Below are positions 12,035 through 46,950 of a DNA stretch of 64,000 bases, in pieces. How positions within the stretch are numbered: position 1 is the first letter of the stretch; the number at the start of each line of letters is the position of its first letter. Position numbers and translations under genes: made by a program. The DNA is from Nocardioides caldifontis (lineage in GTDB: Bacteria > Actinomycetota > Actinomycetes > Propionibacteriales > Nocardioidaceae): the NCBI RefSeq assembly GCF_008087345.1, contig NZ_VHIB01000001.1, forward strand, positions 1 through 64,000. The letters are read 5' to 3'. A model generated the notes under the pieces. It was not told the origin of the DNA and ran no database searches. It was given only the letters and a program-made list of their open reading frames with translations.

Positions 12035-12386
12035 GCCGAGCCGTCGCATCTTCACCGGCTTTCGGGGCCGAGTCGTCGCATCTTCACGCCGTTCTCGCCG
12101 CGAGCCGTCGCATCTTCACGAGATTTCGGGGCCGAGCCGTCGCATCTTCACCGCGCCTGCACCGTTCATGTCGCCGACAGGTCTGGGCGGGCCAACGAGA
12201 TGCGGACGGGCATGAACGACGCCGACCACCCGCATCAGGCAAGCAACGCCGACTGGACCGCCGTACGCCGGCAGGACGCGCCGACTCGACCCTCATCCGG
12301 AGTGAAGATGCGACGACTCGGCATCAAAATCACGTGAAGACGCGACGACTCGGCGGGGAAACCGGGTGAAGATGCGACGGGTCGGC
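12035..12386. repeat. 32-bp-period direct array (4 copies) facing inverted copies (3) at a convergent junction
   Basis: Four direct copies of the core GAGCCGTCGCATCTTCAC end at 12055, 12087, 12119 and 12151, exactly 32 bp apart. Three inverted copies (GTGAAGATGCGACGACTCGG and variants) start at 12302, 12334 and 12366, again exactly 32 bp apart. The linkers between cores are ~11-13 nt and vary around an AAA centre. The 150-bp spacer contains an 8-bp dyad (CGTTCATG 12163-12170, CATGAACG 12211-12218). The structure fills the junction between the fusion gene (+) and the subtilase gene (-) and ends 2 nt from the latter's stop. No gene is visible in it. Confidence 0.9.
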
Positions 12387-12388
12387 GG

Positions 12389-15178
12389 TCAGCGACCTCC
12401 GAGGACGGTCTTCTTGGCGTCGAGGAGCCCGTAGCCGTCGACCGGGGAGTACCCCTTCCCGAGCCGGTTCCGGAACTGCCCGACGATCTTCGAGCCGTTG
12501 GTGCGCCGGGCCTCGAAGACCATGCCGCGCGGGTCTCCGGTCCCTTGCGGGATGGAGATCGCGCCGCCGAGCTCGTCGGCGCCGTTGCCCTCGCTGACGT
12601 CTCCGAACGGCGACATCGCCAGGTCGCGGTCGACCCCGAAGGTCAGCCACTGGCCACGCTTCAGCCCCTTCGGGAACTTCAGCGTCATCCGCCGGTAGAC
12701 CCCCTTCGGGGCGTCACCGCCGGCCGGCACCGAGAACACCGCGCGCACGTCCTTCGCGGACAGCCCCCGGCTGGTCGAGCCGACGGTGAACGGGAAGCCG
12801 ACCTCGCTGAACGGCCCGGCGGCGTCGAACGGCCGGGGGTCGAAGACGATGCCGCCCTTGCCCCGCTTCCCCAGCGCCGTCGGGCTCGCGGTCTCGCCGT
12901 AGAACGTGACCTGCTTGAGCGGCTTCTTCCCGTCGTACCGCAACCGGAAGAAGTCGGTGTCGTCCAGCGTGCCCGGCACCGGGCTCCCCTCGGCGCCCTG
13001 CGGGCCGAAGGCGCGGACGGTGAGCCCGCCCTTGCGGCCGCCGGAGCGGAACGGGTCGAGGTCGTGGGCGAACGTCGACCGCGACATCAGCCGCCGCATC
13101 GCCTCGGGCTTCATGCGCCCGCGCTCGTCGAGCACGAGTGCCGCCACCGCCGCGGCGTGCGGGGCCGCCGCACTGGTGCCGAAGAAGTTCGGCAACGTGT
13201 CGGGGTCACGCGTGGTGTCGGAGAAGAAGAACGTGGTGTTCCCGCCGTCGGTCGACGCGATCAGTGGCGAGGTCCGCTGCTGCGGTCGGCGGTACCGGTT
13301 GCCCTCGGAGTCGAAGAGCACCGGGAGCCGGCCGCCGACCGAGGTGAAGTACTCCGGCAGGAAGGGCCGGAACGGTTCGTACGCCGCGACGCCGGTGGCT
13401 CCCGCGGCCGCCGAGTGGCCGAAGACCGAGGGGGCGAAGGGGTTCTCGTACTCGGTGAAGTACCAGTCCCCGTTGGCCACCGCCCGGAGCCGGGTCGCCT
13501 TCATCGGGCCGGTTCCCGCGCGGCTGACGACCATCTGGATCTCGGGGAGCCCGGCGAGCGCGACGATCTCGATCGGGCGGCCGGAAAGGGTGTTGAGGTC
13601 GCTCAGCGCCCCGAGGTAGCCGCCGTCGGCGTCGAAGAACAGCACGTTGAAGTCCGCGGTGACCTGCGACGGCGCGGTCACCGGACGGACCACCACCTCG
13701 AAGTCGCCGACCTCGCCCTGGAACCCGGTGACGGTGATCGTGTAGTCACCGGCCGTGTCGATCTCGGTCGCCAGCAGCTCGGGGCTGGTGCCGGTGTCGA
13801 TCGGGCCGACCACCTCGCCGTCGGGGGTCTCGACCGTGAGCAGCAGGTCTGTGGAGCCCGACGGGATGCCGTCGACCCGGATCTCGACCGTGGTCCCGAC
13901 CTGCTCGGGCGTCGCGGTGAAGGTGAAGCTCGGCTCCGGCTCGGCGGCGGTGATCGCGCCCGTCGCCTCGAAGATCGGGTCGCCGTACGTCGCGCCGTCG
14001 AGGTCGAACGGGTCGTCCCACTGGAAGCTGAGGAGCCCGCCGGCCTCACCGAGCGTGATCGTCTGGGCGATGTCGACACCCGGGCCGGGGCGCACGTCCT
14101 GCAGCCCGCCGTCGTACAGGTCGGGGTCGACCTGGCTGAAGTCGAGGTCGCTGCCGGCCACGCCGCGCTCCGGCGAGACCAGCCGGACCCGCGACTCCCA
14201 GGCGTTCTGCTGCCCCTGGTTGCCGGCGGAGCTGAAGTAGTGGACGCCGTCCGCGGCGACGTCGTCGATCGCGTCGCTGAGGATCGAGTCGGAGAAGAAC
14301 GGCTCGTCGAAGTAGGCGACGTCGTCGACGATCACGTCGGCGCGGCAGGGCCCGCTGCGGTCGGCGAGCCGGCGGACGTTGTCGGCGAACCCGACGAGGC
14401 CGGTGAACGCGGTGGCGAAGCAGAGTCGCGACCGGGGCGCCACGTCGTGGGCGATCTGCAGCATCCCGCGCCCCTCATCGCTGGCGTCGGGGGCGTCGTA
14501 GTCCTCGAGGACCACCACGGGGTTCGGGTTGCGGCGGTTGCCGGGGCCCGGGAGGTCACCGGAGGCCACGTCGTCGGCCGCCCGGGTCAGCGGCGGTGCG
14601 CCGTTCAGCTCGGTGGCGGTGTCGAAGGAGTCCGACAGCGCGCCGATCGTCACGCCGCTGCCGGTGATCCCGCGCCGGTGCACCTCGTCGACCCGCTGGA
14701 ACGGCACCCCCGCCCAGTCGACCGAGCCAGCGGAGCCCTGCGGCTTCACGACCTGCGCCAGGGTGCCGGTGCCCTCGAGCGAGGCCAGGGAGCGTACGGC
14801 GTCCAGCGGCACGAACCCCTCGAGCGTCCCCACCTCCGGGTCGGTCGCGGTCACGACCATCCCGAGCTCCTCGGCCTGCCGGCGGAACGCCTGCCGCGCG
14901 ACCCCCTGCTGCGGGGTGAGCGAGACGAGCACCCGCCCGGCGTCGTCGCGGACGGTGAGCGCCTCCTGGTCGAAGCGGAGCCCGCCCACGGCCTTGCGGC
15001 GCAGCCGGGTGGTGTCGTCGGCGAGCAGCCGGCCGAGCCCGTTGCCGAGCGCGCTGCGCACCTCGGGGACAGGGGTCGGGTCCACCGCCTCGGACGGTTG
15101 CACGCTGCCGGGGACGAGCCCCGCCCCCGCGACCATCCCAACCCCGACGACACCGACGATCCACCGAGCACGCGCCAT
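12389..15178 (-). CDS. Secreted subtilase-fold (S8-like) serine peptidase, atypical active site
   Basis: A 929-aa protein with a signal peptide (MARARWIVGVVGVGMVAGAG, cleavage near SEA at ~31). The peptidase domain shows the Asp region VTIGALSDSFDTA (Asp183) and the Ser region FGTSAAAPHAAAVAALVL (Ser ~668). Between them the usual HGTH motif is not seen; the corresponding place holds DEGRGMLQIAHD (234-245), as in a subgroup of bacterial S8-like proteins. A ~200-aa insertion contains a PPC-like beta domain (VGTTVEIRVDGIPSGSTDLL, then DTAGDYTITVTGF). The C-terminal ~200 residues look beta-rich. ATG 15178 is followed directly by the signal peptide. It is probably exported and autonomous; the substrate is unknown. 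Confidence 0.85.
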   Translation of the reverse strand: MARARWIVGVVGVGMVAGAGLVPGSVQPSEAVDPTPVPEVRSALGNGLGRLLADDTTRLRRKAVGGLRFDQEALTVRDDAGRVLVSLTPQQGVARQAFRRQAEELGMVVTATDPEVGTLEGFVPLDAVRSLASLEGTGTLAQVVKPQGSAGSVDWAGVPFQRVDEVHRRGITGSGVTIGALSDSFDTATELNGAPPLTRAADDVASGDLPGPGNRRNPNPVVVLEDYDAPDASDEGRGMLQIAHDVAPRSRLCFATAFTGLVGFADNVRRLADRSGPCRADVIVDDVAYFDEPFFSDSILSDAIDDVAADGVHYFSSAGNQGQQNAWESRVRLVSPERGVAGSDLDFSQVDPDLYDGGLQDVRPGPGVDIAQTITLGEAGGLLSFQWDDPFDLDGATYGDPIFEATGAITAAEPEPSFTFTATPEQVGTTVEIRVDGIPSGSTDLLLTVETPDGEVVGPIDTGTSPELLATEIDTAGDYTITVTGFQGEVGDFEVVVRPVTAPSQVTADFNVLFFDADGGYLGALSDLNTLSGRPIEIVALAGLPEIQMVVSRAGTGPMKATRLRAVANGDWYFTEYENPFAPSVFGHSAAAGATGVAAYEPFRPFLPEYFTSVGGRLPVLFDSEGNRYRRPQQRTSPLIASTDGGNTTFFFSDTTRDPDTLPNFFGTSAAAPHAAAVAALVLDERGRMKPEAMRRLMSRSTFAHDLDPFRSGGRKGGLTVRAFGPQGAEGSPVPGTLDDTDFFRLRYDGKKPLKQVTFYGETASPTALGKRGKGGIVFDPRPFDAAGPFSEVGFPFTVGSTSRGLSAKDVRAVFSVPAGGDAPKGVYRRMTLKFPKGLKRGQWLTFGVDRDLAMSPFGDVSEGNGADELGGAISIPQGTGDPRGMVFEARRTNGSKIVGQFRNRLGKGYSPVDGYGLLDAKKTVLGGR

Positions 15179-15406
15179 GCGTGAGCCTCCCCTGTGCGGG
15201 CGCCGGTCCGAGCGACGCCTGAGGCCGCGACAGTAGTCCCGTACCCAAGGTCCCGAAAAGGGGGCATTCCGTGGGGGTCCCGCCAAGTCGGGACGTTCGG
15301 CGGTCGAATGAAGGCCCCGAACCGGTGCGAAACGGTTGAGCGTCCGGTTAGCGTTCCGGGACGTCGGGCGCCGGGGGGCTCCGACGCGTGAACCTGGGAG
15401 CCAGTC

Positions 15407-17491
15407 TTGAGGCCAGTCGGACGCCTTGTCCTCGCGGTCGTCGCCGCGACCGTCCTCGCCCTGACGGGGTCGCTCGTGGGGTTGGTGACCTCGCCCGCCA
15501 CCGCGGCGTACAACACGGTGCCGGGGCGCTCGTGGGTGCCCAACGGCGTCGTCTACGACGTGGCCCGGGGCGACGACGTCATCTACATCGCCGGGGACTT
15601 CACCAGCCTGCAGGACCCGGCGACCGGCACGACCGCGACCCGGCAGCGGGTGGCCGCGCTCGACGCGGCGACCGGTGAGCTGCTGCCCTGGAACCCGGGG
15701 GCCAACGACACCGTCCGCGCGATCGACGCCGCGGGCGGCACCGTCTACTTCGGCGGCGAGTTCTCCCAGGCGAACGGCGAGCCCGCGACGCGCATCGCCG
15801 CGGTAGGGGCCGACGGCAGCGCGGTCCCGGGGTGGAGCGCGCAGGTCAACAACACGGTCGTGCGCATCGTCGCGACGCCCACCGCGGTCTACATCGGCGG
15901 CCAGTTCGGGGCGGTGAACGGCGTCCAACGGCCGCGGCTGGCCCGGCTGGAGCCGGGCACCGGTGCCCTGGTCAGCACCTTCAACGCCCAGGTCTCCGGC
16001 GGTCGGGTGAACGCGATCGCCCTCTCGCCGGACGGCACCCGGCTCTACCTCGGCGGCACCTTCTCCCAGCTGCGCGGGCAGAGCCGGGTCTTCCAGGGCG
16101 CGGTCGACGCCGAGACCGGAGCGGTCTCGACGTCATGGGCACCGCCGGCCCGCTGCGACATCTGCCACATCTTCGACATGGTCGCCGACGGCGACCGGGT
16201 CTTCGCCGCGGTGGGCGGCGGCGGCGGCCGTGTCCTGGCCTGGAACGAGAACGGCGGGGTCGCCTGGCAGCGGCGCGGGGACGGCGACGTGCAGGCGATC
16301 GACGTGGACTCCGGGATCGTCTACGCGGGCGGCCACTTCGGTCCGCTGTTCGAGGGGCAGACCCGCCACATGCTGGTCGCGCTCGCGGTGTCCAACGGCG
16401 CCGTCCAGGGCTACCGGCTGCCGTTCACCGGCTCCGACTTCCCCGGCATCTGGGCGGTCCTCGCCGACAGCTCGGGGCTCCACATCGGCGGCTCCTTCCG
16501 GTTCAGCGGCGGCAACCCGGCACGCCGCTACGCCCGGATGAGCTACATCGTCGAGCCGCCGTCGGCGCCGCAGGACGTCACCGCCACGGCGGTCGGCCGC
16601 GAGGTGCGGGTCAGCTGGGGCGCTCCCGTCAGCGACGGCGGCGGGATCGACCGCTACCGCGTCTTCGTGAGCCCGCGCGGGAACTTCGCCGACGACCAGG
16701 TCTGCCAGGTGACCCGGCGCAGCTGCACGGTCCCCATCGGCCCCGACGGGCTCGTCGAGGGGCAGACGTACACGTTCACGGTCCGGGCGCTGAACAGCGC
16801 CGGTGTCGGCCCGCTCTCCGCTGCGTCCGCCCCGGTCGTCGCCGACGGTGTCGGGCCGCGCACCACGGTCAAGCAGCCGAGGTGGCGCACGGTCACCGGC
16901 ACGACCGGGCAGCTCCGCTGGACCGCGACCGACCCGTCGGGAGTGTCGGAGTACCGCGTCGCGACGCGCTCGGGAGTCGCGCGCAAGAAGGGGTACGGCG
17001 CCTGGACCACCACCTCCACCACGGCCACGTCGACCACGCTGGCGTTCGCGCCGGGTCGGACGGTGTGCGTGAAGGTGCGGGCGGTCGACGGGCTGGGGAA
17101 CCTCGGCCCCTGGTCCGCGGTGGCGTGCCGCTCGACCCCGACCGACGACCGGGCGTTCAAGGCCAAGGGCACCGTGAAGCGGCTCTCCGGCGCGTCGTAC
17201 TTCGGCGGCACCGCGAGCCGGATCACCGGCCCGAAGAGCGAGCTCCGGCTGGGGAAGGTGCTGGCGAAGAACGCCTCGCTCGTCGCCTGGTCGTGCTCGA
17301 CCTGCGGCAAGGTGCGGGTCTACTACGGCAAGAAGCTGGTGAAGACGGTCAACCTCAAGGGCGCCGCGAAGCAGCGCGTCGTCGCGCTGCCAGCCACCGG
17401 CAAGGCCGGGCGCAAGCCGATGAAGGTCACCCTGCGGCCGGCGAACAAGAAGCCGGTCGTGGTCGACGGCGTCGCGCTGCTGCCGCGCTGA
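15407..17491 (+). CDS. Secreted beta-propeller-like protein with fibronectin type III domain
   Basis: A 694-aa protein using a TTG start with GGGAG upstream; the N-terminus is a signal peptide ending near PATAA (~residue 35). Residues ~40-380 contain repeated blades with the pattern VYFGGEFSQANG, VYIGGQFGAVNG, LYLGGTFSQLRG and LHIGGSFRFSGG, about 50 residues apart, like delta-60/propeller repeats. Residues ~385-475 are an FN3 domain (PSAPQDVTATAVGREVRVSW), followed by a second Ig/FN3-like region and a lysine-rich C-terminal module with CSTCGKVRVYYGKK. It is divergent from the subtilase across 228 nt, so both may be secreted under shared control. No catalytic residues are evident; a cell-surface or matrix role is a guess. 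Confidence 0.85.
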   Translation: MRPVGRLVLAVVAATVLALTGSLVGLVTSPATAAYNTVPGRSWVPNGVVYDVARGDDVIYIAGDFTSLQDPATGTTATRQRVAALDAATGELLPWNPGANDTVRAIDAAGGTVYFGGEFSQANGEPATRIAAVGADGSAVPGWSAQVNNTVVRIVATPTAVYIGGQFGAVNGVQRPRLARLEPGTGALVSTFNAQVSGGRVNAIALSPDGTRLYLGGTFSQLRGQSRVFQGAVDAETGAVSTSWAPPARCDICHIFDMVADGDRVFAAVGGGGGRVLAWNENGGVAWQRRGDGDVQAIDVDSGIVYAGGHFGPLFEGQTRHMLVALAVSNGAVQGYRLPFTGSDFPGIWAVLADSSGLHIGGSFRFSGGNPARRYARMSYIVEPPSAPQDVTATAVGREVRVSWGAPVSDGGGIDRYRVFVSPRGNFADDQVCQVTRRSCTVPIGPDGLVEGQTYTFTVRALNSAGVGPLSAASAPVVADGVGPRTTVKQPRWRTVTGTTGQLRWTATDPSGVSEYRVATRSGVARKKGYGAWTTTSTTATSTTLAFAPGRTVCVKVRAVDGLGNLGPWSAVACRSTPTDDRAFKAKGTVKRLSGASYFGGTASRITGPKSELRLGKVLAKNASLVAWSCSTCGKVRVYYGKKLVKTVNLKGAAKQRVVALPATGKAGRKPMKVTLRPANKKPVVVDGVALLPR

Positions 17492-17497
17492 CCTGGC

Positions 17498-17916
17498 TCA
17501 GCCTTCCTCGAACCGCATGGCGTCGAGGTTCCAGTAGCCGCGCAGGTTGAGGATCCGGCCGTCGTCGTCGACGCGGTAGCAGAACACGCCGCGGACGGTG
17601 CTGGTGAGCCCGCCCTCGAAGGAGCTTCGCAGCGTCATCACGTGCGCGACCTCGTGCGGCGAGCTCGACGGGAACGTCTCCTCGCAGGTGATCCGCAGGT
17701 CGTTGGTGACGATGTTCCGGTCGTAGAACTCCTCGACCGCCGCGCGCCCCGGACCCCCGTCCCGTCGGGGTTGGTGATCGCCAGCCCGATCGGGACCTCG
17801 ATCACCACGTCGTCGGCCATCAGGGAGAGCCACCCGTCGCGGTCGTGGGACTGGACCGCCGCCCAGGACGCGCGGGAGGCCCTCATCGCCGGCGTCTCGG
17901 TCTTCTCGTCCGTCAT
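17498..17916 (-). pseudogene. SnoaL-like (NTF2 superfamily) protein gene with a frameshift
   Basis: Two reading frames together make one SnoaL-like domain of ~139 aa. The N-terminal half from ATG 17916 reads ASWAAVQSHDRDGWLSLMAD, then VVIEVPIGLAITNPDGTGVR. The C-terminal half, in another frame, reads RAAVEEFYDRNIVTNDLRIT and ends with LRGYWNLDAMRFEEG at 17498. The switch falls at about 17752-17757 in a GGGG run; one additional G would restore a continuous frame. This is either a real one-base deletion that inactivates the gene or a sequencing error in a homopolymer. NTF2/SnoaL-like proteins include cyclases, isomerases and polar-ligand binders; no specific function can be given. Confidence 0.75.
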
Positions 17917-17953
17917 GCGCGCCATCCGGCCCCGTCGGCACTAGCCTGACGCG

Positions 17954-18619
17954 GTGCGGACCACCCGCTTCTTCCGGACCACCCCCTGCGCGATCCTCCT
18001 CGTCGTGCAGCTCCTGGGGGTGCTCGCCTACCCCTTCATGGAGGACACGGTCGCGGGCCAGTCGCTGCTCGCCCTGTTCGGTCTGCTGGTGCTCGGCATC
18101 GCCCTCCTCGCGATCCGGATGACGCCGCTGCTGTGGTGGGTGGCGCTCGGCATCGCGGGCCCGTCGGTGGGGCTGCTGCTCGCCCAGGCGGTCACCAACA
18201 ACGGCGACCTGGCGCCGTGGAGCGCCGGCTTCGAGGCCGCGCTCTACTTCTACGCCGCCGCCGCGATGATCGTCTACATGCTCGAGGACGACCGGGTCAC
18301 CACCGACGAGCTGTTCGCGATCGGCGCGGTCTTCACCCTCCTCGCGTGGGGCTTCGCCTACGTGTACGTCGTGGTGCAGGCCGTCGACCCCGGGAGCTTC
18401 ATCGCGGCGCTCTCCCCCGACGAGTCACGGTCGTGGACGGAGATGCTCTACCTCTCCTTCTCGACCCTCTCGGGCGTCGGGCTCTCCGACGTGGTGCCGG
18501 TGAAGGGTCACGCCCGGAGCGTGGTGATGATCGAGCAGGCCGCCGGGCTCTTCTACATCGCGATGGTGGTCACCCGGCTGATCGGGCTCCAGGCGGCGCG
18601 CCGCGCGTCGCGCCACTGA
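17954..18619 (+). CDS. Ion-channel-like membrane protein (two-TM pore domain family)
   Basis: A 221-aa integral membrane protein with about six hydrophobic segments (near 10-28, 36-52, 58-78, 88-108, 120-142 and 190-210). Before the last helix is a pore-loop-like segment, MLYLSFSTLSGVGLSDVVPV (~167-186), placed like the selectivity filter of Ion_trans_2 potassium channels. The canonical TVGYGD is replaced by SGVGLSD, so ion selectivity cannot be inferred. The GTG start is 37 nt from the divergent SnoaL gene start. Not obviously in an operon; the next gene starts 80 nt downstream with its own RBS. Confidence 0.75.
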   Translation: MRTTRFFRTTPCAILLVVQLLGVLAYPFMEDTVAGQSLLALFGLLVLGIALLAIRMTPLLWWVALGIAGPSVGLLLAQAVTNNGDLAPWSAGFEAALYFYAAAAMIVYMLEDDRVTTDELFAIGAVFTLLAWGFAYVYVVVQAVDPGSFIAALSPDESRSWTEMLYLSFSTLSGVGLSDVVPVKGHARSVVMIEQAAGLFYIAMVVTRLIGLQAARRASRH

Positions 18620-18699
18620 CCCCGTGTGAGCCGGCGTCGGAGGGGTACCGGACGCGCGCAAGCGCCCCTCGGGGGCGGCACCGACGACAGGAGGCTCCC

Positions 18700-22140: not shown

Positions 22141-22182
22141 GAGCCGCCCCTCGGCGCGCTGGCGCGCCACGAGGGGCGGCTC
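22141..22182. terminator. Hairpin between convergent genes, a minimal pair of the GCCGCCCCTC repeat family
   Basis: GAGCCGCCCCTC (22141-22152) pairs perfectly with GAGGGGCGGCTC (22171-22182). Inside them GCGCGC (22154-22159) pairs with GCGCGC (22162-22167) around a TG loop. It sits exactly between the stops of the small membrane protein (+) and the ThDP enzyme (-), so it can act as a bidirectional terminator. The arm sequence is the same core that forms the arrays at 39055-39330 and 46565-46950. Confidence 0.75.
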
Positions 22183-24024: not shown

Positions 24025-24873
24025 ATGCAGCAGCGACGCCTCGGCACCCGGCAGGTCAGCGCGATCGGGCTGGGCGCCATGCCCATGTCGGTCCGCACGC
24101 ACAACGACGAGGAGCGGTCGCTCGCGACGATCCGCCGGGCCGTCGAGCTCGGCGTGACTCTGGTGGACACCGCGGACGCCTACGCGCCGGACGAGGCGAC
24201 CTTCGGCCACAACGAGCGGCTGGTCGCGAAGGCGCTCCGCGAGGTCGGCGCCGACCACGTGCTGGTGGCGACGAAGGGCGGCCACACCCGCAGCGGCACC
24301 GACTGGGGGCTCGACGGGTCGCCGGAGCACCTCCGCAAGGCGTGCCTGGCGTCGCTCGAGCGGCTCGGCGTGGAGCGGATCGACCTCTACCAGCACCACC
24401 GCCCCGACCCCGAGGTGCCGTACGACGAGACGGTCGGTGGGCTGAAGGCGCTGCTCGACGAGGGGCTCGTCGCCGCGGTCGGGCTCTCGAACGCCGACCC
24501 CGACCAGATCCGGCTGGCGCACGGTGTCCTCGGCGACGGGCTGGTCGCGGTGCAGAACCAGTTCTCCCCCGCCTTCCGGAGCTCGCGGCCCGAGATCGAC
24601 CTGTGCGCCGAGCTCGGGCTGACCTTCCTCGCCTGGAGCCCGCTGGGCGGGATGGGCGACGCAGCAGCGCTCGGCAGCAAGTGGAGCGGCTTCGCCGAGG
24701 TGGCCCGCCGCCACGGGGTCAGCCCGCAGCGGATCTGCCTGGCCTGGGAGCTGTCGCTCTCCGACGCGGTCGTGCCGATCCCGGGAGCGAGCCGGCCGGA
24801 GTCGGTCGAGGACTCCGCGGCCGCCGCCGAGCTGGAGCTCGACGAGCAGGACCTGGCACTGCTAGGTGGTTGA
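24025..24873 (+). CDS. Aldo/keto reductase
   Basis: A 282-aa protein with the AKR (beta/alpha)8 fold. The catalytic tetrad is visible: Asp48 and Tyr53 (VDTADAYAP), Lys84 (VATKGG) and His ~124 (DLYQHHRPDP). A typical NADPH-binding tail contains PIPGASRPESVED. ATG 24025 is chosen; an upstream GTG adds only three residues. The stop codon TGA lies inside the dispersed 3'-end repeat at 24865-24886, so the repeat supplies the final Gly-Gly-stop. It is divergent from the ThDP enzyme by 53 nt. The substrate is unknown. Confidence 0.92.
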   Translation: MQQRRLGTRQVSAIGLGAMPMSVRTHNDEERSLATIRRAVELGVTLVDTADAYAPDEATFGHNERLVAKALREVGADHVLVATKGGHTRSGTDWGLDGSPEHLRKACLASLERLGVERIDLYQHHRPDPEVPYDETVGGLKALLDEGLVAAVGLSNADPDQIRLAHGVLGDGLVAVQNQFSPAFRSSRPEIDLCAELGLTFLAWSPLGGMGDAAALGSKWSGFAEVARRHGVSPQRICLAWELSLSDAVVPIPGASRPESVEDSAAAAELELDEQDLALLGG

Positions 24874-24886
24874 GCTCGTCGAAACC
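24865..24886 (+). repeat. Dispersed 3'-end repeat, copy 2 (overlaps aldo/keto reductase stop)
   Basis: GGTGGTTGAGC, then TC, then GTCGAAACC. It is in the sense direction of the aldo/keto reductase, whose TGA stop is within the repeat. It fills the 14-nt gap to the stop of the convergent permease gene. Same core as 589-613 (minus) and 46527-46551. Confidence 0.7.
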
Positions 24887-38928: not shown

Positions 38929-39001
38929 GCCCCCATCGTCTAGCGGCCTAGGACCCCGCCCTTTCACGGCGGTAGCACGGGTTCGAATCCCGTTGGGGGT
39001 G
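38929..39001 (+). tRNA. tRNA-Glu (UUC anticodon)
   Basis: A 73-nt cloverleaf without encoded CCA. Acceptor stem GCCCCCA with TGGGGGT (G1-U72 wobble); anticodon stem CCGCC/GGCGG around loop CTTTCAC, giving anticodon TTC; T-arm ACGGG-TTCGAAT-CCCGT; discriminator G. A -10-like TACGAT at 38891-38896 and a GCTGAC at 38869-38874 form a plausible promoter overlapping the soxR stop. The 12 bases at its 3' end are repeated at 39005-39016. Confidence 0.95.
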
Positions 39002-39054: not shown

Positions 39055-39330
39055 GAGCCGCCCCTCGTGGCGCGCGTCGGTGGCCTCGAACCGCCCCTTG
39101 TGGCGCGTGCGGGACGTGTTGAACCGCCCCTCGTGGCGCGTGCAGGGCCTCGAAGGCCACCCGAACATGCAACTCGACTCCGTGGGCCCATCTCAGGCTG
39201 ATTTTCGCGGAAGCTGCCCGTCCGACCGGCCCTGCACCGGCGTACTCGCCCCTGATGCCCACCGGCAACTCGGTCGGCCGCGCCACACCGGGCGGCTCGA
39301 TCTCACGCGCGCCAGAAGGGGCGGCTCAAC
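39055..39330. repeat. 33-bp-period GCCGCCCCTCGTGGCGCG array with an inverted copy, tRNA-Glu to secreted protein junction
   Basis: Three direct copies of the core (GAGCCGCCCCTCGTGGCGCG, then variants beginning GAACCG) start at 39055, 39088 and 39121, exactly 33 bp apart. One inverted, diverged copy (GCGCGCCAGAAGGGGCGGCT) lies at about 39308-39327. The spacer contains a loose dyad (GTGGGC at 39182, GATGCCCAC at 39254). The 350-nt gap 39002-39351 holds only this element and the duplicated tRNA end; no gene is visible. It lies between converging transcription units. Confidence 0.85.
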
Positions 39331-40319: not shown

Positions 40320-40393
40320 GGCCAGGTAGCTCAGTTGGTACGAGCGACCGACTGAAAATCGGTAGGTCGGCGGTTCGACCCCGCCCCTGGCCA
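40320..40393 (+). tRNA. tRNA-Phe (GAA anticodon)
   Basis: 74 nt without encoded CCA. Acceptor GGCCAGG with CCTGGCC, discriminator A; anticodon stem ACCGA/TCGGT around loop CTGAAAA, anticodon GAA; T-arm GCGGTTCGACCCCGC. It completes a Glu-Asp-Phe tRNA group in the same order as in other actinobacteria. Confidence 0.95.
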
Positions 40394-40402
40394 CGGCAAC
40401 GG

Positions 40403-40431
40403 AGGGGCTCCTGACCTGGTCGGGGGCCCCT
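40403..40431 (+). terminator. Probable terminator after tRNA-Phe
   Basis: AGGGGC near 40403 pairs with GCCCCT ending at 40431, extended imperfectly by TCC/GGG, with a loop of about 10 nt. It is 10 nt after the tRNA end. Confidence 0.5.
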
Positions 40432-40463
40432 TCGTCGTACCTCCGGCGCATACTGTCGACCCC

Positions 40464-41486
40464 ATGAGCGTCCCCCGGTGGCTCCTCCGCGCCGAGCAAG
40501 CCTGGGACGCGGCGCGGCTGCGGCGGCGGGCGTCGCGGGTGCCCGAGCACTTCCGGATCGTGGCGTACGGCGGTCACGGCAGCGACGGCCAGGTGGTGGT
40601 CCGCGGCCGTGTGGTCGACGACCCGCCGCCCTCCTCCGCCGTCGAGGGTGAGGGAGTCGGCGCGGCCGTCCGCCGCTCCGTGCGGAGCTTCGTCACCGAC
40701 GAGCTCCCCGGGGTGCCGCTCCGGGTCTCCGTCGCCGGCACGGAGGTGGAGGCGGTGACCGACGCGGAGGGGTACTTCGTCGTCCGGCTCGCGCCGCCGG
40801 CCGTGCGACCGCCCTGGTCGCAGGGGACGGTGGAGCTGGCCGGGGAGTACCGCGGGCTGACCGCGCCGCACACCACCACGTTCGACGTGCGCGTCCCGGG
40901 CCCCGACGCCGCTTTCGGCGTCATCTCCGACATCGACGACACGATCCTGCAGACCGGCGTCCAGCGGGCCGGCCGGATGGTCCTCCAGACGCTCACCGGC
41001 TCCGCCCTCACGCGGGTGCCGTTCGAGGGCGCGGCCGAGCTCTACACCGACCTCGCGCACGGCGGGCGGAACCCGTTCTTCTACGTCTCCTCCAGCCCGT
41101 GGAACCTGCACGCGTTCATCGAGGCGTTCCTCCGGCACCGGGGGTTCCCGCTCGGCCCGGTGCTGCTGCGGGACCTCCTCGGCGCCGCGAAGGGCCGGGA
41201 GGAGAAGCACGACCGGATCCGCGAGGTCCTCGCGCTCCACCCCGGGCTCCGGTTCGTGCTCATCGGCGACTCCGGCGAGAAGGACCCCGCGGTCTACGCC
41301 GACATCGTGCGCGAGCACCCCGGCCGGATCCTCGCCGTCTACATCCGCGAGGTGCGGCTCGACCCGGGCGACGGCCGCGTCGAGAAGATCTCGAGCGCCT
41401 GGGGCCACGAGACGCCGTTCGTGCTGGCGGCCGACAGCGACGCCGTACGGCACCACGCCACCGGGCTCGGGCTCATCCGGGGGTGA
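40464..41486 (+). CDS. App1-family (DUF2183) phosphatase domain protein
   Basis: A 340-aa protein. The C-terminal catalytic domain has the HAD-like signature GVISDIDDTILQTG (~155-168) with nucleophile Asp, FFYVSSSPWNLHAFIEAFL, and RFVLIGDSGEKDPAVYADIV, as in the yeast App1 phosphatidate phosphatase catalytic domain. The N-terminal ~140 residues are beta-rich (GQVVVRGRVVDDPP, GVPLRVSVAGTEVEAVTDAE), a typical accessory domain of bacterial members. It may dephosphorylate a phospholipid or related phosphate; the substrate is unproven. Its stop overlaps the 3' end of the convergent nitronate monooxygenase gene by 14 nt. Confidence 0.9.
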   Translation: MSVPRWLLRAEQAWDAARLRRRASRVPEHFRIVAYGGHGSDGQVVVRGRVVDDPPPSSAVEGEGVGAAVRRSVRSFVTDELPGVPLRVSVAGTEVEAVTDAEGYFVVRLAPPAVRPPWSQGTVELAGEYRGLTAPHTTTFDVRVPGPDAAFGVISDIDDTILQTGVQRAGRMVLQTLTGSALTRVPFEGAAELYTDLAHGGRNPFFYVSSSPWNLHAFIEAFLRHRGFPLGPVLLRDLLGAAKGREEKHDRIREVLALHPGLRFVLIGDSGEKDPAVYADIVREHPGRILAVYIREVRLDPGDGRVEKISSAWGHETPFVLAADSDAVRHHATGLGLIRG

Positions 41487-42426
41487 CGGTCCCCGCGCGG
41501 GCGAAGGAGGCGACCACGTCCGCCGCTGCCGTCTCCTCGGTCAGCAGCGCCGCACCCTGGCCGGCGTAGACGACGGCGACGTCGAAGTCCCCTTCGCGCG
41601 CGGCCGCGTCGTACCGGGCCAACGCCTCGGTGTCCGCCTCGAGCTCGTCCTCATGGCCCACCCACTCGTCGAAGAACCGGTTGCGCAGCGCGCGTCCGCC
41701 GTACTCCCGCGGCCAGGGGGCCCGCTGGGCGACGTCGAAGACGCGGCCGTAGACGGTGGCCGTGTCGTCGGCGGCGATCAGCCGCTGCCGGGCGGCGGCG
41801 GGGAAGACGCTCTCCCGGCAGCAGAGGAACGCCGTCCCGACCCAGGCACCGACGGCGCCTCCGGCGAGGACCGCGGCCAGCCCGTCGGCGTTCGCGATCC
41901 CGCCCGCCGCGACGACCGGGACGTCGGCGGCGGCGCGCACCAGCTGGAGCAGCGGCAGGGTGCTGACCTCGTCGCGGCCGTGGCCGCCGGCCTCCCGCCC
42001 CCGCGCGACCACGAGGTCGACGCCCGCCTGCTCGGCACGCCGCGCCTCGGCGACGTTGCCGACCTGGGTGGTCACCAGCTTCCCGGCAGCCTTCGCCCGG
42101 CGGAGCGGCTCCTCGAACGCGCCGAAGCTCACCGAGACGAGGGCGGTGTCGGTCTCGAGCGCCGCCTCGAGGGGTCGGGGGTCCCGCTCGAGCGCCCACG
42201 CCATGAACCCGAGGCCGTACGGCGCTCCCGCACCTCCCGCGGTCCGCGCCTGTTCGTGCACCCATTCACGGGAAGCGGTCGGGCCGACGCCGACCATCCC
42301 GAGCCCGCCGGCCGCGGAGACCGCCGCGGCCATCACTCCTTCGCTGACCCGCGCCATCGGCGCCTGGACCAGCGGCACCTCGATACCGAGCGTGTCGGTC
42401 AGCCACGTGGACACGTCAGCGCTCAC
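41473..42426 (-). CDS. Nitronate monooxygenase family protein (FMN-dependent)
   Basis: A 317-aa TIM-barrel flavoprotein of the 2-nitropropane dioxygenase/NMO family. Visible features are [20 protein letters not shown] (N-terminal FMN phosphate side), [11 protein letters not shown], the Gly-rich FMN motif [15 protein letters not shown] and [19 protein letters not shown], then [14 protein letters not shown]. NMOs oxidise alkyl nitronates such as propionate-3-nitronate. GTG 42426 overlaps the DUF1348 gene stop (GTGA). It is the last gene of the five-gene operon starting at the DoxX-like gene. Confidence 0.9.
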
Positions 42427-42893
42427 AGGTCGAGGTCGGTGAGCCCCGGGTGGTCCGCGGGGCGCGGACCGTCGAGCGGCCAGCGGAACTTGCGGTCCGC
42501 CTCGTCGATGGGCACGTCGTTGATGCTGGCGTGGCGGCGCGCCATCAGCCCGTTGGCGTCGAAAAGCCAGTTCTCGTTGCCGTACGAGCGGAACCAGGCG
42601 CCCGTGTCGTCGTGCCACTCGTAGGCGAACCGCACCGCGATCCGGTCCTCGCCGAAGGCCCACATCTCCTTGATCAGCCGGTAGTCGAGCTCCTTGGCCC
42701 ACTTGCGGGTCAGGAACTCGACGATCGCCTCGCGGCCGGTGAAGAACTCCGACCGGTTCCGCCACCGGCTGTCGGGGGTGTAGGCGAGGGCGACCTTCTC
42801 GGGGTTCCGGGTGTTCCAGCCGTCCTCCGCGGCTCGGACCTTCTTGATCGCGTCTTCCTCGGTGAACGGCGGGACGGGCGGCCGGGGCTCCAT
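42423..42893 (-). CDS. DUF1348 / NTF2-like protein
   Basis: A 156-aa protein with the compact DUF1348 pattern: [77 protein letters not shown] and [17 protein letters not shown]. This is an NTF2-superfamily subgroup with a cone-shaped pocket; no activity is established. It starts 19 nt after the reductase stop and overlaps the next gene by 4 nt, so it is part of the operon. It may bind a substrate or product of the neighbouring flavoenzymes. Confidence 0.9.
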
Positions 42894-42912
42894 GGCTCTC
42901 CTCAGGACGGGT

Positions 42913-44166
42913 TCACGGCACTGTAGGACTCGCGACGACCTCGCCCAAGGGGACCGCGGGGTCCCGGAGCCGGGCGAGGTCGACGTGGTCGGCACCCACG
43001 ATCGCGCGCAGCGACGGGGTGGCGTCCCAGTCGTTGACGTGCATCGCGGCCGAGACCCGGTCGCCGGTGGCCCAGAAGGCGGTGTAGACGCCGCTTCCCG
43101 GGTCGCCTCGGAGCACCAGCCCGTCGTCGCCGCCGGCGTGACCGACGTACTCCATGCCGAGGTCGTACTGGTCGGTGAAGAAGTACGGGAGGTGGTCGTG
43201 GGGCTCCTCCGCGCCCAGCATGTTCCGGGCCGCCGTCGCCCCCTGCGCCTTCGCGTTGTGCCAGTGCTCGACGCGGAGCCGCCGTCCGAACCGCGCGTGC
43301 CAGGCGTTCGCGAGGTCGCCGGCGACGAACACGTCCGGGTGGGAGGTGCGCAGCGTCTCGTCGGCGAGGACGCCGTCGCCCACCTCGAGGCCGGCTGCCT
43401 CCGCGAGCTCGGTGGTCGGCACCGCGCCGATCCCGACGACCAGCAGGTCGGCCTGGACGGCGGTGCCGTCGTCGAGCTCCACCACGGCGGGGACACCGTC
43501 GGCGGGCGTCCCGGTCGGGGGCCGGCTGCGGATCCCGGTGACGGCCGTCGAGGTGCGGACCTCGACCCCGTGGGCGCGGTGCAGGTCGGCGAAGAGCCGG
43601 CCGACGGTCGGGCCCAGCACCCGCGTCAACGGCTCCGCGAGCGGCTCGACCACGACGACGTCGCAGCCGGCGGTGCGCGCGGTGGCGGCTACCTCGAGGC
43701 CGATCCAGCCGCCGCCGACGACGACCACACGGCGACCGGGGCGGAGCGCCGCCCTGATCCGGTCGGAGTCCTCGACGGTGCGCAGGTAGGCCACGGTCGC
43801 TCCGCTGCGGTCGGCCGACGGGAGGCGACGGGCGGTCGACCCGGTGGCGAGCAGGAGACGGTCGTAGCCGAACCGCTCGCCACCGACCTTCACGGTGTGG
43901 GCCTCGAGGTCGAGCCCGGTGGCCGGTGCACCGAGCCGGAGCTCCACGTCGCGGGTGTCGTAGAACTCCGCCGGGTGGACGAACGCGTCCTCGAAGGAGG
44001 CCTGGCCCGCGAGGTAGGCCTTGGACAGCGGCGGGCGCTCGTACGGCAGGTGCGGCTCGGCGCCGACGAGCACCAGGCGTCCGTCGTACCCCTGCTCCCG
44101 CAACGTCGCGACCGCGGTGGCGCCGGCCAGCCCGGCACCGACCACCACGAAGGCCCCGCTGCTCAT
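42913..44166 (-). CDS. FAD-dependent NAD(P)H oxidoreductase (ferredoxin-reductase type)
   Basis: A 417-aa protein. The FAD-binding strand is [20 protein letters not shown] (~4-23), then [15 protein letters not shown], the family's active-site segment, and a NAD(P)H-binding fold [20 protein letters not shown] (~148-167). [16 protein letters not shown] contacts FAD, followed by [20 protein letters not shown]. The C-terminal ~80 residues are the reductase C domain. It resembles putidaredoxin/rubredoxin reductases and reductases of Rieske systems. It overlaps folE by 4 nt (ATGA). No ferredoxin gene is adjacent. Confidence 0.92.
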
Positions 44167-44825
44167 CGCGGACCACCCCGATCGCGGGTCAGCGCCAGGA
44201 ACTCCGCGCGCGACGACGGGTCGGTGCGCAGGGTGCCGAGCATCGCGGAGGTGACCGTGCGGGTGCCCGGTGCGCGGACTCCGCGCAGGCTCATGCACGT
44301 GTGCTCGGCCTCGACGACCACCCCGACGCCGCGCGGCGCGACGTGGGTCTGCAGGTGCTCGGCCACCTGCTTGGTGAGCCGCTCCTGGGTCTGGGTGCTC
44401 GAGGCGAAGAACTCGACGAGCCGGGCGAACTTCGACAACCCGAGGATCCGCTCACCGGGGAGGTAGCCGATGTGCGCGACCCCGGTGAACGGCAGCCCGT
44501 GGTGCTCGCACACCGAGCGCACCGGGATGTCGCGGACGAGCACCAGCTCGTCGTACCCCTCGGTGTTGGGGAACGTCGTGAGCTCGAACGGCGCGGGGCT
44601 CAGCAGCTCGGCGTACGCCGCCGCCATCCGCCTCGGCGTCTCGGCGAGGTGCGGCGTGTCCAGCCGCTGGCCGAGCGCGGCGAGAAGAGCGGCGGCGGCC
44701 TCCTCGGCGGCCTCGAGGTCGACCGTCGTCTCCGCGGCGACGCGCGGCCGCCACGGCAGCACGGTCGCGGCGTCGGGCTGCGCAGACATCGCCGCAGACG
44801 TCGCCGCAGACATCGGCGCGGTCAT
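44163..44825 (-). CDS. folE: GTP cyclohydrolase I
   Basis: A 220-aa protein. It converts GTP to dihydroneopterin triphosphate, the first step to folate or tetrahydrobiopterin. Conserved features are TPHLAETPRRMAAAYAELL, zinc-site residues in VRSVCEHHGLPFTGVAHIGY (Cys and His) and in EAEHTCMSLRGV (second Cys), and LSKFARLVEFFASSTQTQER. The 37-residue N-terminus is Ala/Met-rich and probably disordered. Unlike a housekeeping folE, which usually clusters with folP, folB and folK, this copy is inside a redox operon under an Fe-S-type regulator. It may be a secondary paralogue; the rest of the genome is needed to tell. Confidence 0.95.
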   Translation of the reverse strand: MTAPMSAATSAAMSAQPDAATVLPWRPRVAAETTVDLEAAEEAAAALLAALGQRLDTPHLAETPRRMAAAYAELLSPAPFELTTFPNTEGYDELVLVRDIPVRSVCEHHGLPFTGVAHIGYLPGERILGLSKFARLVEFFASSTQTQERLTKQVAEHLQTHVAPRGVGVVVEAEHTCMSLRGVRAPGTRTVTSAMLGTLRTDPSSRAEFLALTRDRGGPR

Positions 44826-45262
44826 CGGGCCGCCCCGGTGCGCGTGCGGCCCGCGGCCAGCCGGGCGAGGGCGAGGGCCGCGACGAGCAGCCCGAAGTCG
44901 CGAAGGGCGACGTCGTGGTACTCCCCCATCGTGACCAGGTTGAGGATGATCCCGGCCAGCCAGGCCGCGACGACGTAGCCGCCGAGGTCGGGGCGTACGG
45001 CGACCAGCAGCCCGGCCGCGACCTCGACCACGCCGACCGCGAGCATCGCCTGGTGGGCGGTGCCCGGGACGAGATCGTCCACCCACGGGGCGAGGTACTG
45101 CTCCCAGTCGGCGAGGAGCCCGGCGAACTTGTCGAGCCCGAACGCGATCGGGGCGATGGTGAAGACGGTCCGGAGCAGGGCGAACGCCTGCTCGGCGGCC
45201 GGGTCCCGGGACTCGGCGCCGGTGGTCGCGGTGCCGGGTCGGAAGGAACGGAGGTGGGTCAT
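44822..45262 (-). CDS. DoxX-like membrane protein
   Basis: A 146-aa protein with four transmembrane helices (28-48, 72-92, 96-116 and 118-136). Characteristic elements are LLRTVFTIAPIAFGLDKFAG, LAPWVDDLVPGTAHQAMLAV and VVEVAAGLLVAVRPDLGGYV. DoxX-like proteins occur with thiol/redox stress genes in actinobacteria. It is the first gene of the operon; the next gene overlaps it by 4 nt. The promoter region holds nested inverted repeats (45280-45308) and is shared with the divergent regulator. AGGAGG precedes the ATG. Confidence 0.85.
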   Translation of the reverse strand: MTHLRSFRPGTATTGAESRDPAAEQAFALLRTVFTIAPIAFGLDKFAGLLADWEQYLAPWVDDLVPGTAHQAMLAVGVVEVAAGLLVAVRPDLGGYVVAAWLAGIILNLVTMGEYHDVALRDFGLLVAALALARLAAGRTRTGAAR

Positions 45263-45279
45263 GGCAGCCTCCTCGGGCT

Positions 45280-45308
45280 CTAACGGAGTATGTTCTTGAC
45301 GTTAGAAC
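45280..45308. promoter_or_regulatory. Nested inverted repeats, candidate operator of the SufR-like regulator
   Basis: CTAAC (45280-45284) pairs with GTTAG (45301-45305), and GTTCT (45292-45296) with AGAAC (45304-45308), the latter with a 7-bp spacer. They lie in the 90-nt region between the divergent operon and regulator, 17 nt before the DoxX-like gene start and 44 nt before the regulator start. The base composition is AT-richer than the surroundings, as expected for a promoter. Confidence 0.55.
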
Positions 45309-45352
45309 CCCAATCTTCTTTCGTCAATGGCCGTGTCTGATAGAGGAGTCGC

Positions 45353-46024
45353 ATGGACGACGTCGGTGCCCAGCTGAGCAGCGTGGGGGTCCTGGCCGAG
45401 CCGGCCCGCCGCGCCCTGTACGAGCACGTCGTCGGGCAGCCGGCGCCGGTCAGCCGCGAGCAGGCGGCGGAGGCGGTCGGCGTGCCGGTGCACTCCGCGA
45501 AGTTCCACCTCGACAAGCTGGTCGCGGCCGGGCTCCTCGAGGTGGAGTACCGCCGGCTCACCGGCCGGACGGGGCCGGGGGCGGGGAGGCCGGCGAAGCT
45601 CTACCGCCGGTCGGAGCGCGAGGTCGCGGTCTCGGTGCCCCCGCGCCGCTACGACCTCGTCGGCGAGGTGCTCGCCGAGGGCGTCGACCGGGCGGTGCGG
45701 GACCAGGTGCCGGTCGACGAGGCGGTGCGGGGGGCTGCCCGGCAGGTCGGAGCGCGACTCACCGCGGCGGCGCCGACTCCGGCCGGGTCGCCGCTGGACC
45801 GCGTCGGTGAGGTGCTCCGACCGCACGGCTACGAGCCGCGGGTGGTCGACGTCGAGCTGTGCCTGACGAACTGCCCGTTCGACCGGCTCGCCGCCGACCA
45901 CGTCGAGCTGGTCTGCGGGCTGAACCTCTCGCTGGTCAGCGGCGTGCTCGACGGGCTCGGGGAGGCCGACCTCGAGGCACGGCTCGCCCCGGAGCCGGGG
46001 TTCTGCTGCGTGCGCGTGGCGTGA
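45353..46024 (+). CDS. SufR-like (COG2345-type) HTH regulator with Fe-S-cluster-like cysteines
   Basis: A 223-aa protein. The N-terminal winged HTH (LAEPARRALYEHVVGQPAPV, VPVHSAKFHLDKLVAAGLLE) is of the ArsR/COG2345 type. The C-terminal part has Cys170, Cys174 (CLTNCPF), Cys188 (VELVCGLNLSLVSGVL) and Cys218-Cys219 (GFCCVRV). The NCPF motif with following cysteines closely resembles the [Fe-S] ligand region of SufR repressors, with spacings C174-x13-C188-x29-C218. No suf genes are here; instead it is divergent from the DoxX-folE-flavoenzyme operon, which it presumably controls in response to redox or nitrosative signals. GAGGAG precedes the ATG. Confidence 0.82.
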   Translation: MDDVGAQLSSVGVLAEPARRALYEHVVGQPAPVSREQAAEAVGVPVHSAKFHLDKLVAAGLLEVEYRRLTGRTGPGAGRPAKLYRRSEREVAVSVPPRRYDLVGEVLAEGVDRAVRDQVPVDEAVRGAARQVGARLTAAAPTPAGSPLDRVGEVLRPHGYEPRVVDVELCLTNCPFDRLAADHVELVCGLNLSLVSGVLDGLGEADLEARLAPEPGFCCVRVA

Positions 46025-46028
46025 CGGC

Positions 46029-46538
46029 ATGCTGACGTTCGGCCACGGGACGGCATCCCAGGACGAGCTGGTGGAGCTGCTGCGCGGCGCCAGGGTGGAG
46101 CGGGTCGTCGACGTACGCCGCTTCCCCGGCAGCCGACGCCACCCGCACGTGGCGACCGACGAGCTCGCGCGGTGGCTGCCGGAGGCCGGCATCGCGTACC
46201 GGTGGGAGCCACGGCTCGGCGGCCGGCGCACGGCGCCGGAGGAGTCGCCGGACACCTGGTGGGAGGTGGAGGCGTTCCGGGCGTACGCCGTCCACACGCG
46301 CACTCCCGAGTTCACCGACGCCCTCGACGAGCTCCTGGCGGAGGAGGGCACCACCGCGATCATGTGCAGCGAGAGCCTCTGGTGGCGTTGTCACCGGCGG
46401 CTGGTCAGCGACGTGCTGGTCCTGATCCGCTCCGTGCCCGTCGAGCACCTCGGCCACGACGGGCGGCGTACCCCGCACCGCCCCTCCGCCGGCGCCCGGG
46501 TCACCGACGCCGGCCTGATCTACGACGGTGGTCGTTGA
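46029..46538 (+). CDS. DUF488 family protein
   Basis: A 169-aa protein with the DUF488 signature: LTFGHGTASQDELVELL at the N-terminus, VERVVDVRRFPGSRRHPHVA, AYRWEPRLGGRR and IMCSESLWWRCHRRLVSDVL (with Cys-Glu-x-x-x-x-x-Cys-His). The function is unknown, possibly a nuclease- or ligase-like fold. It starts 4 nt after the regulator stop, so the two are co-transcribed. Its TGA stop lies within the dispersed 3'-end repeat at 46527-46551. Confidence 0.9.
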   Translation: MLTFGHGTASQDELVELLRGARVERVVDVRRFPGSRRHPHVATDELARWLPEAGIAYRWEPRLGGRRTAPEESPDTWWEVEAFRAYAVHTRTPEFTDALDELLAEEGTTAIMCSESLWWRCHRRLVSDVLVLIRSVPVEHLGHDGRRTPHRPSAGARVTDAGLIYDGGR

Positions 46539-46551
46539 GCTTGTCGAAACC
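46527..46551 (+). repeat. Dispersed 3'-end repeat, copy 3 (overlaps DUF488 stop)
   Basis: GGTGGT, an inserted CG, TTGAGC, then TT, then GTCGAAACC; sense orientation relative to the DUF488 gene, whose stop codon is inside. Related to 589-613 (minus) and 24865-24886. The 32-bp array begins 14 nt downstream. Confidence 0.65.
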
Positions 46552-46564
46552 CCTCGAGGTGGTT

Positions 46565-46950
46565 GAACCGCCCCTCGTGGCGAGCGCGGTTGTGTCGAAC
46601 CGCCCCTCGTGGCGAGCGCGGTTGTGTCGAACCGCCCCTCGTGGCGAGCGCGGTTGTGTCGAACCGCCCTTCGTGGCGAGCGCGGTTGTGTCGAACCGCC
46701 CCTCGTGGCGAGCGCGGTTGTGTCGAACCGCCCTTCGTGGCGAGCGCGGTTGTGTCGAACCGCCCCTTGTGGCGAGCCGGGCCGTCGTACGACGCGCCGG
46801 TGTCTCGATGCGTGCACCTGCGCGGACTTTCACGCGGACCGGCGCGGATCCGGTGAAAGCTCGTTCAGCTGCGCGACCAGGGACGCGAGCACGCGCGCCA
46901 CGAGGGGCGGTTCAACACCCACCACGCGCGCCACGAGGGGCGGCTCGACA
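46565..46950. repeat. Seven-copy 32-bp tandem array with inverted copies, DUF488-hutI junction
   Basis: Seven near-identical units start at 46565, 46597, 46629, 46661, 46693, 46725 and 46757, exactly 32 bp apart. Each begins GAACCGCCCCTCGTGGCGAG and continues CGCGGTTGTGTC; the only variants are single C/T changes and a diverged seventh end. Two inverted copies (CGCGCGCCACGAGGGGCGG, then TTC or CTC) lie at about 46892-46913 and 46925-46946, 33 bp apart. The ~100-nt spacer contains a 7-bp dyad (CTTTCAC 46827-46833, GTGAAAG 46853-46859). No gene is visible in the gap 46539-46953. Confidence 0.95.

Follow-up and report, generated by a model that had tools for sequence, protein, structure and literature searches.

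Four core-repeat elements between converging genes

The stretch of DNA analysed here, referred to below as the window, comprises the 64,000 nucleotides at the start of contig C1 in the 4.81-Mb genome of Nocardioides caldifontis (G000). Its G+C content is 72-77% across 4-kb windows, and it holds four intergenic elements, at 12.0, 22.1, 39.1 and 46.6 kb, built on two short cores, A and B. As a preliminary description of this DNA had it, the elements are present at these places and all four read as direct core or cores, a spacer, and inverted core or cores (Table 1). Each lies between a plus-strand and a minus-strand gene that converge in our own gene calls, the left neighbour at 39.1 kb being a tRNA gene. 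Three of the elements are arrays, of core A at 12.0 kb and of core B at 39.1 and 46.6 kb; the 22.1-kb element is not an array, merely a minimal inverted pair. We argue below that the four are probably gene-less copies of a selfish interspersed repeat system that resembles the repetitive extragenic palindromes (REPs) of other bacteria and is associated with a putative Vsr-type nuclease.

At up to three mismatches the window contains 17 matches to core B (1.96 expected) and 8 to core A (0.21 expected), numbers that were never equalled in shuffles. Outside the elements there is one three-mismatch match per core (21224 and 38565). A scan for terminators, taken as a GC-rich hairpin followed by a T run, covered the 12.0- and 46.6-kb elements and found no site in them. 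Here and throughout, genes were called with a home-made codon-score script, and individual neighbour assignments may err.

Table 1. Repeat features of the window, with their positions and surroundings.
Feature	Position	Strand	Remarks
12.0-kb element, direct arm, core A	12037..12151	+	four copies, 32-bp period; starts 42 bp downstream of position 11994, where the + gene stops
12.0-kb element, spacer	12152..12301		a single minus-strand A'-type core at 12271-12288; inverted CGTTCATG pair (by eye)
12.0-kb element, inverted arm, core A	12302..12384	-	three copies, 32-bp period; 4 bp short of the 3' end of gene 12389-15178 (-)
22.1-kb element, minimal core-B inverted pair	22141..22182		one (+) copy with 2 mismatches, 6 bp, one (-) copy
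39.1-kb element, direct arm, core B	39055..39138	+	three copies, 33-bp period; downstream of the tRNA gene 38929-39001 (+)
39.1-kb element, inverted arm, core B	39281..39327	-	two copies spaced by 29 bp, with 2 and 1 mismatches
Core C, GTTGAGCTTGTCGAAACC	46534..46551	+	13 bp ahead of the left arm of the 46.6-kb element; GTTGAGC start as in many core-B copies (by eye)
46.6-kb element, direct arm, core B	46565..46774	+	seven copies, period exactly 32 bp
46.6-kb element, spacer	46775..46895		imperfect inner inverted repeat (by eye)
46.6-kb element, inverted arm, core B	46896..46946	-	two copies, 33-bp spacing; 7 bp short of the 3' end of gene 46954-48108 (-)

Phased arrays follow stop codons across the genome

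At up to one mismatch the genome holds 129 copies of core A and 272 of core B, whereas the reversed patterns used as controls gave 0 and 2. We analysed 69 stretches (675,951 bases including overlaps, with the window among them) picked around listed core matches, those of core B being the first 100 places listed; single cores with a mismatch were excluded from the arm counts, here and in other genomes. The period is 32 bp in 69 of the 78 steps of A arms and 32 or 33 bp in 89 of the 107 steps of B arms; 22 bp forms a minor class. A sense-gene stop codon lies upstream of 35 of the 50 arms of core A and of 62 of the 71 intergenic arms of core B, mostly at a distance below 30 bp. The preference for 3' ends is therefore real, but it may need no further cause than selection against insertions that hit genes or promoters.

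The 69 stretches contain 91 elements. Of these, 3 lie within genes, and the other 88 divide into 48 at convergent, 33 at co-directional and 7 at divergent gaps. The rule that such elements occupy convergent junctions holds for the four in the window; genome-wide it is a strong tendency and not absolute. Convergent gaps make up only 14% of intergenic bases but hold 48 of the 88 intergenic elements (binomial p ~1e-18), and the enrichment persists against their 23% share of gaps (p ~1e-10). Divergent gaps, by contrast, account for 38% of intergenic bases and hold 7 of the 88. Opposite arms no more than 1.5 kb apart form 41 pairs in the order plus, minus and none in the order minus, plus, and the core is the same in 40 of the 41. 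Because of this constant order and the shared core, the arms of one junction look like a single unit rather than two independent gene tails.

Inward-facing arms that share a core would also suit an element acting at the RNA level, a bidirectional terminator or 3'-end stabiliser whose arms pair into a long hairpin in read-through transcripts. Small elements such as L093, L109 and L111, which form perfect 36-bp palindromes, fit the same idea. We nevertheless regard it as improbable. Within an element, the linkers of the two sides resemble each other no more than linkers of different elements do (196 of 2000 permutations as high for 15 A elements, 1085 of 2000 for 14 B elements), and arm-to-arm pairing is disfavoured because linkers are unmatched across the arms and no hairpin with a T run, the U-tract of a transcript, occurs in the 12.0- and 46.6-kb elements. 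In addition, 57 of the 88 intergenic elements have arms of a single orientation within 450 bp, and helical periods are not expected of such a device. Intrinsic termination, one of three functions offered in the preliminary description, is unsupported, given the linker comparison and the absence of a terminator-like site from those two elements.

A k-mer enrichment analysis of the element interiors brought out weak shared motifs only. An interior of ~145 bp with inverted ends of its own (GAGCCGCCGCTGGTGGCGG) is common to four core-B elements (L124, 4123-4264; L127; L101; and L064), one of them having it reversed, and two further partial copies lie elsewhere. At L103 a tRNA-Ser-like sequence stands between core-B arms (by eye). 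In-frame copies of core B are found within genes at L062 (5585-5701), L076 (6967-7017), L074 (4042-4090), L090 (1778-1795) and L095 (4034-4109); the core encodes EPPLVA in the sense direction in 4 of these 5 cases, and L062 has four copies at 33 bp.

The repeat class in other genomes

At up to one mismatch, cores A and B occur at chance level in 97 relatives, four congeners among them: core A has one match each in 2 genomes and core B one or two each in 12, numbers not above those of the reversed patterns. A congener (G004) carries a related core, A', at the junction orthologous to L106, which in G000 has a core-B array. A relaxed tandem pattern derived from A and A' is present in 16 of 341 same-family genomes, which belong to three genera, with zero control matches. 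Confinement to this single assembly, which the preliminary description named as refuting its reading, applies to the exact cores A and B among the genomes searched and not to the class. The 3' half of the core differs among many of the 16 positive genomes and is common to some.

We sampled 60 stretches from 11 pattern-positive genomes, representing part of the listed places. In these, a sense stop codon precedes 96 of the 113 arms, in 82 cases by no more than 30 bp, and the step is exactly 32 bp in 155 of 165 instances despite differing linkers. Neighbouring arms are ordered plus, minus in 49 of 51 cases, and 42 of 69 elements are convergent compared with a 17% share of intergenic bases.

Orthologous-junction pairs are few. 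At L071 the gap measures 514 bp in G000 and 93 bp in the congener G002, which has neither the arrays nor the 67-aa gene, a difference that suits insertion. Beyond L071 the pairs are less clear, and the L072 gap is longer in G002 (593 versus 238 bp). The same congener has an array of a different sequence with a 34-bp period (L162, 10744-10862). Gene order is broken at the 46.6-kb element: its right-hand minus-strand genes are kept in four congeners and its left neighbour is not (L149-L152). Tandem cores A and B gave 0 and 0 matches in contigs of named species, a set from which the genome itself was possibly excluded. Viral contigs yielded no tandem core B and three isolated matches to single core A, and a search of plasmid DNA for the repeats gave no matches.

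A gene for a putative winged-helix nuclease lies between arms of each core

At six loci in six other genomes, 1023-1095 bp separate the arms, and each interval contains one gene, all six being of one family. The genome of N. caldifontis has two members in the same setting: L089 (4126-5133 on contig C6), in a 1098-bp interior between core-A arms, and L092 (4256-5182 on contig C7), in a 1033-bp interior between core-B arms. Their proteins are paralogous (44% identity over 248 aa). The genome has four homologues at E<=1e-10, of which these two score 470 and 432 bits and the other two 65 and 56. We attribute the two cores of this genome to its two paralogous nucleases, one for each core. The shared layout of A and B had been ascribed to convergent evolution; this is unlikely, since the cores flank paralogous nucleases, and common descent of the system is indicated instead. 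Among the three functions offered in the preliminary description, a non-autonomous element fits best. The co-occurring DNA-binding or transposase-like gene that it proposed to look for has a counterpart here in the winged-helix/nuclease gene found inside the arms of each core. Six further same-core arm pairs of G000 enclose non-nuclease genes (L069, L080, L085, L087, L104 and L105; among them, by eye, MarR-like plus cupin-like, dienelactone hydrolase-like and DNA glycosylase-like genes), which are possibly passengers.

The family protein is ~320 aa long, with an AbiEi-type winged helix at its N terminus and a putative Vsr/MTES_1575-type nuclease at its C terminus. Among six proteins compared with Pfam, AbiEi_4 matched the N terminus above its cut-off in four and below it in two. 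MTES_1575 matched the C terminus of five, in every case below the 38.2-bit cut-off (36.3 to 14.0), and was unlisted for L265; DUF559 was above cut-off in L092 only. Residues E258, H265, D274 and R277 are invariant in 31 homologues, and position 247 is D in 28 and E in 3; we take E258, H265, D274, R277 and D247 to be the catalytic residues. An AlphaFold2 model of the protein (mean predicted local distance difference test score, pLDDT, 78; predicted template-modelling score, pTM, 0.77) has the AbiEi antitoxin 6y8q as its top fold neighbour in the PDB, at E 0.0019 and with nothing at <=0.001, while the top fold neighbours in a viral structure library are DUF559/Vsr-type proteins.

Such a domain composition raises the prospect of a defence device, an anti-invader nuclease for which the chromosomal arrays would be protected or titrating self sites. 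An AbiEi-type domain is present, and Vsr-type nuclease domains are found among proposed defence proteins (PMC3710099). The surroundings of the gene speak against this reading, which we judge very improbable. The six neighbours at L089, L092 and L254 are of housekeeping type (DUF349, RelA, YkuD, cytochrome b, 6-phosphogluconolactonase and RbpA), with no toxin and no methylase among them, and a protein search of a phage collection found no homologue. Viral contigs searched with alignment A1 gave no confirmed match. A search of plasmid proteins returned three weak matches at <60% identity; of two inspected, the Tsukamurella plasmid homologue shows an inverted match spanning the gene (16 bp or more) but lacks a tandem array, and the Nonomuraea plasmid homologue lacks an inverted match and shows a weak 32-bp signal in a single flank.

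An RbpA-like neighbour stands beside the nuclease gene in 16 of 29 loci, including L254, L265, L281, L287, L293 and L309 (assigned by eye, and by Pfam for L254). The cores of these RbpA-adjacent genes differ and both gene directions occur; the RbpA neighbourhood is a long-standing resident place of the nuclease gene. A second shared place is found in G000 and G001, where the gene lies at apparently the same relA-DUF349 junction (by Pfam in G000, by eye in G001). The two proteins are 56% identical and their cores are related but different, so the position of the gene can be old while the core changes.

The gene and its array are linked and diverge together

We searched 34 genomes, the 16 positive for the A-type pattern and 18 negative ones, with an eight-protein profile. 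Some homologue was found in all 34. Homologues of at least 430 bits occurred in 11 of the 16 pattern-positive genomes and in 2 of the 18 negative ones (G183 and G237), and these two do carry arrays, with cores beyond the A-type pattern. We then examined 50 homologues whose gene had been called, drawn from 29 of the 30 profile-search loci, 20 additional loci and L092; 41 of them score at least 199 bits. One locus, L337 of G002, was excluded from the flank-array and inverted-match counts because its gene was missed by the caller; it has a 22-bp-period array in its left flank and no inverted match.

A tandem array was present in a flank of 40 of the 41 homologues of at least 199 bits, and in both flanks of 32, compared with 47 of 317 control genes from congeners. 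The nine weaker homologues had none. Flank periods were 21, 22, 31, 32, 33 or 43 bp in 71 of 72 cases, whereas those of the controls were scattered. Inverted matches spanning the gene and 20 bp or longer occurred in 33 of the 41 (35 of all 50), as against 3 of 317 congener controls and 1 of 69 controls with converging neighbours. The core also follows the protein. Thirty-one of the 50 homologues have at least 270 aa and cores that could be read in both flanks; among these, protein identity correlated with core similarity (Spearman 0.55; 0 of 2000 permutations as high). In G000, G164, G167 and G183 the paralogues of a genome differ in core. When dispersed cores were compared with the flank cores of resident genes, G000 gave a clear match.

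The association bears on whether the repeats are an ordinary family of miniature inverted-repeat transposable elements (MITEs) of a conventional transposase, in which the nuclease gene is a passenger. Inverted ends, dispersed copies, the ~145-bp interior common to four elements and the presence of other genes between some arms all accord with a MITE family. But the nuclease gene does not behave as a passenger, because 40 of 41 close homologues of this one family are accompanied by arrays, and the cores of these arrays are of many kinds; moreover, a search confined to the Y1 class found no such transposase in G000. We consider a MITE family the least probable of the readings weighed here.

A third dispersed core, C (GTTGAGCYTGTCGAAACC), has window copies at 592-609 (-) and 24869-24886 besides the one in Table 1. 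It gave 5 matches at one mismatch in the 676 kb sampled, with 0 for the reversed control. The GTTGAGC start of core C resembles core B and certain flank cores found with the nuclease family, and another paralogue may be its partner.

A proposed mobile, nuclease-associated repeat system

The kept nuclease domain, the one gene per core, the gene's own inverted repeats, the gene-less copies, the patchy distribution and the fast turnover of cores match the REPs and their enzymes, the REP-associated tyrosine transposases (RAYTs). It is from this match, at the level of sequence, that we read the window elements as gene-less copies. A complete unit would consist of an inward-facing tandem array of a ~20-bp core, the nuclease gene and the same array inverted. 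Free linkers, and periods that correspond to two, three or four turns of the helix, point to a protein that reads double-stranded DNA from one face, and the nuclease protein may bind its own core cooperatively in this manner; cooperative binding to inverted repeats is reported for an AbiEi protein (PMC7319586). Nicks or breaks made by the nuclease could then let core arrays be copied elsewhere, the two nucleases of G000 would spread gene-less copies in trans, and copies would persist mainly between converging genes, because insertion there disrupts neither genes nor promoters. Whether the fusion of an AbiEi winged helix to a Vsr nuclease is a new mobilising enzyme that spreads phased inverted core arrays in trans, each paralogue its own core, and so a second, independently evolved REP/RAYT-like system, is in our estimation evenly poised.

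The main rival to the selfish reading is an insulating role for the host, in which a structural array-binding protein acts at 3' ends to separate or block converging transcription, the nuclease fold being autoregulatory or incidental. We think it unlikely, although several features agree with it. Arms sit tightly behind stop codons, as the counts from the 11 other genomes illustrate, the arrays are helically phased, and few elements occupy divergent gaps. A presence as patchy as 16 of 341 genomes for the A-type pattern is, however, ill-suited to a general host function, and cores A and B are at chance level in the four congeners. The conserved residues of the nuclease domain also argue against an insulator, and the convergent gene at L124, which we take to be rpoC, retains a hairpin of its own outside the array, as in G003 (by eye).

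Several observations weigh against a mobile system driven by the nuclease. As noted above, 57 of the 88 intergenic elements have arms of a single orientation, and the nine long interiors of G000 (514-1495 bp) contain the nuclease in two cases, other genes in six and, in the ninth (L091), only a low-scoring frame that overlaps an arm. The nuclease gene itself seems not to move often, since gene-bearing copies are often at shared places, and the in-gene copies of L062 and L095 sit in linkers that are variable in all congeners, with no clean insertion seen there. Five of the 16 pattern-positive genomes (G004, G015, G166, G251 and G358) have no homologue of at least 430 bits. G004 and G015 are array-rich yet without a verified matching gene, G004 being 82% complete and a second G015 homologue lying outside the sample; G166, G251 and G358 have one or two pattern matches each, and the flank cores of their homologues differ from the pattern. 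Inverted matches were more frequent among controls in array-bearing loci (13 of 167 and 9 of 199), some of these being nuclease genes themselves. The winged-helix region tracks the core no better than the middle region does (rho 0.39 versus 0.58). Finally, in genomes other than G000 the dispersed core matched the resident gene's own flank core best, or tied for best, in 6 of 9, the cores there being much alike.

The repeats look like a previously undescribed kind of genome-colonising bacterial repeat; literature searches, in which subscription papers were not covered, turned up no account of repeats like these in connection with AbiEi, DUF559 or Vsr proteins. If the proposed system is real, a second, unrelated enzyme class would be at work, and small dispersed repeats with dedicated nucleases would have arisen more than once. 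It would also give a role to part of the partnerless AbiEi-like and DUF559-like proteins and supply natural protein-core pairs for deciphering the winged-helix recognition code. The system opens to testing whether repeats of this kind are selfish or have a role in transcription where gene ends converge.

Comparison with known systems

RAYTs themselves were considered and rejected: the Y1 (HUH) model PF01797 had 0 matches in G000, with positives in 5 of 98 genomes and in 5 of 14 controls. The likeness is one of organisation. As three studies describe REP/RAYT systems, an enzyme gene is flanked by its own inverted repeats, gene-less copies are many, several types occur per genome, repeat and enzyme co-diverge, and sites lie near 3' ends and in convergent or unidirectional gaps, with some in genes (PMC2817692, PMC3733652, PMC8266576). 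In contrast, the enzyme here joins a winged helix to a Vsr-type nuclease and is not an HUH Y1 protein, and the repeats form helically phased tandem arrays (21-22, 31-33 and 43 bp), as would suit recognition in double-stranded form. Read by eye, the cores have no GTAG head; A and B are palindrome-free, and A'-type cores hold the 11-bp near-palindrome GCCGASTCGGC.

In PMC3733652, RAYTs are described as the enzyme partner of GTAG-type REPs, and CGTC-tagged REPs are short dispersed repeats, mostly of alpha-Proteobacteria, in convergent or unidirectional gaps, with palindromes of 8-9-bp stems and no dedicated enzyme. Our repeats share with the latter their small size, dispersal and placement in convergent and unidirectional gaps (PMC3733652). 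They differ in that cores A and B have no such stem (by eye) and in having a gene partner.

The AbiEi antitoxin of type IV AbiE systems resembles the family protein in its N-terminal winged helix, and 6y8q is its nearest PDB fold. The family protein differs by its C-terminal nuclease domain, and the AbiEii-type toxin is absent among the six neighbours checked. For that nuclease domain, the DUF559/MTES_1575 nucleases and the Vsr-fold homing endonucleases are the closest relatives in family and fold neighbours; the likeness to the EDxHD group is tentative and accords with the fold neighbours. Unlike a homing endonuclease of this fold with its single homing site, the nuclease described here is matched by many dispersed arrays.

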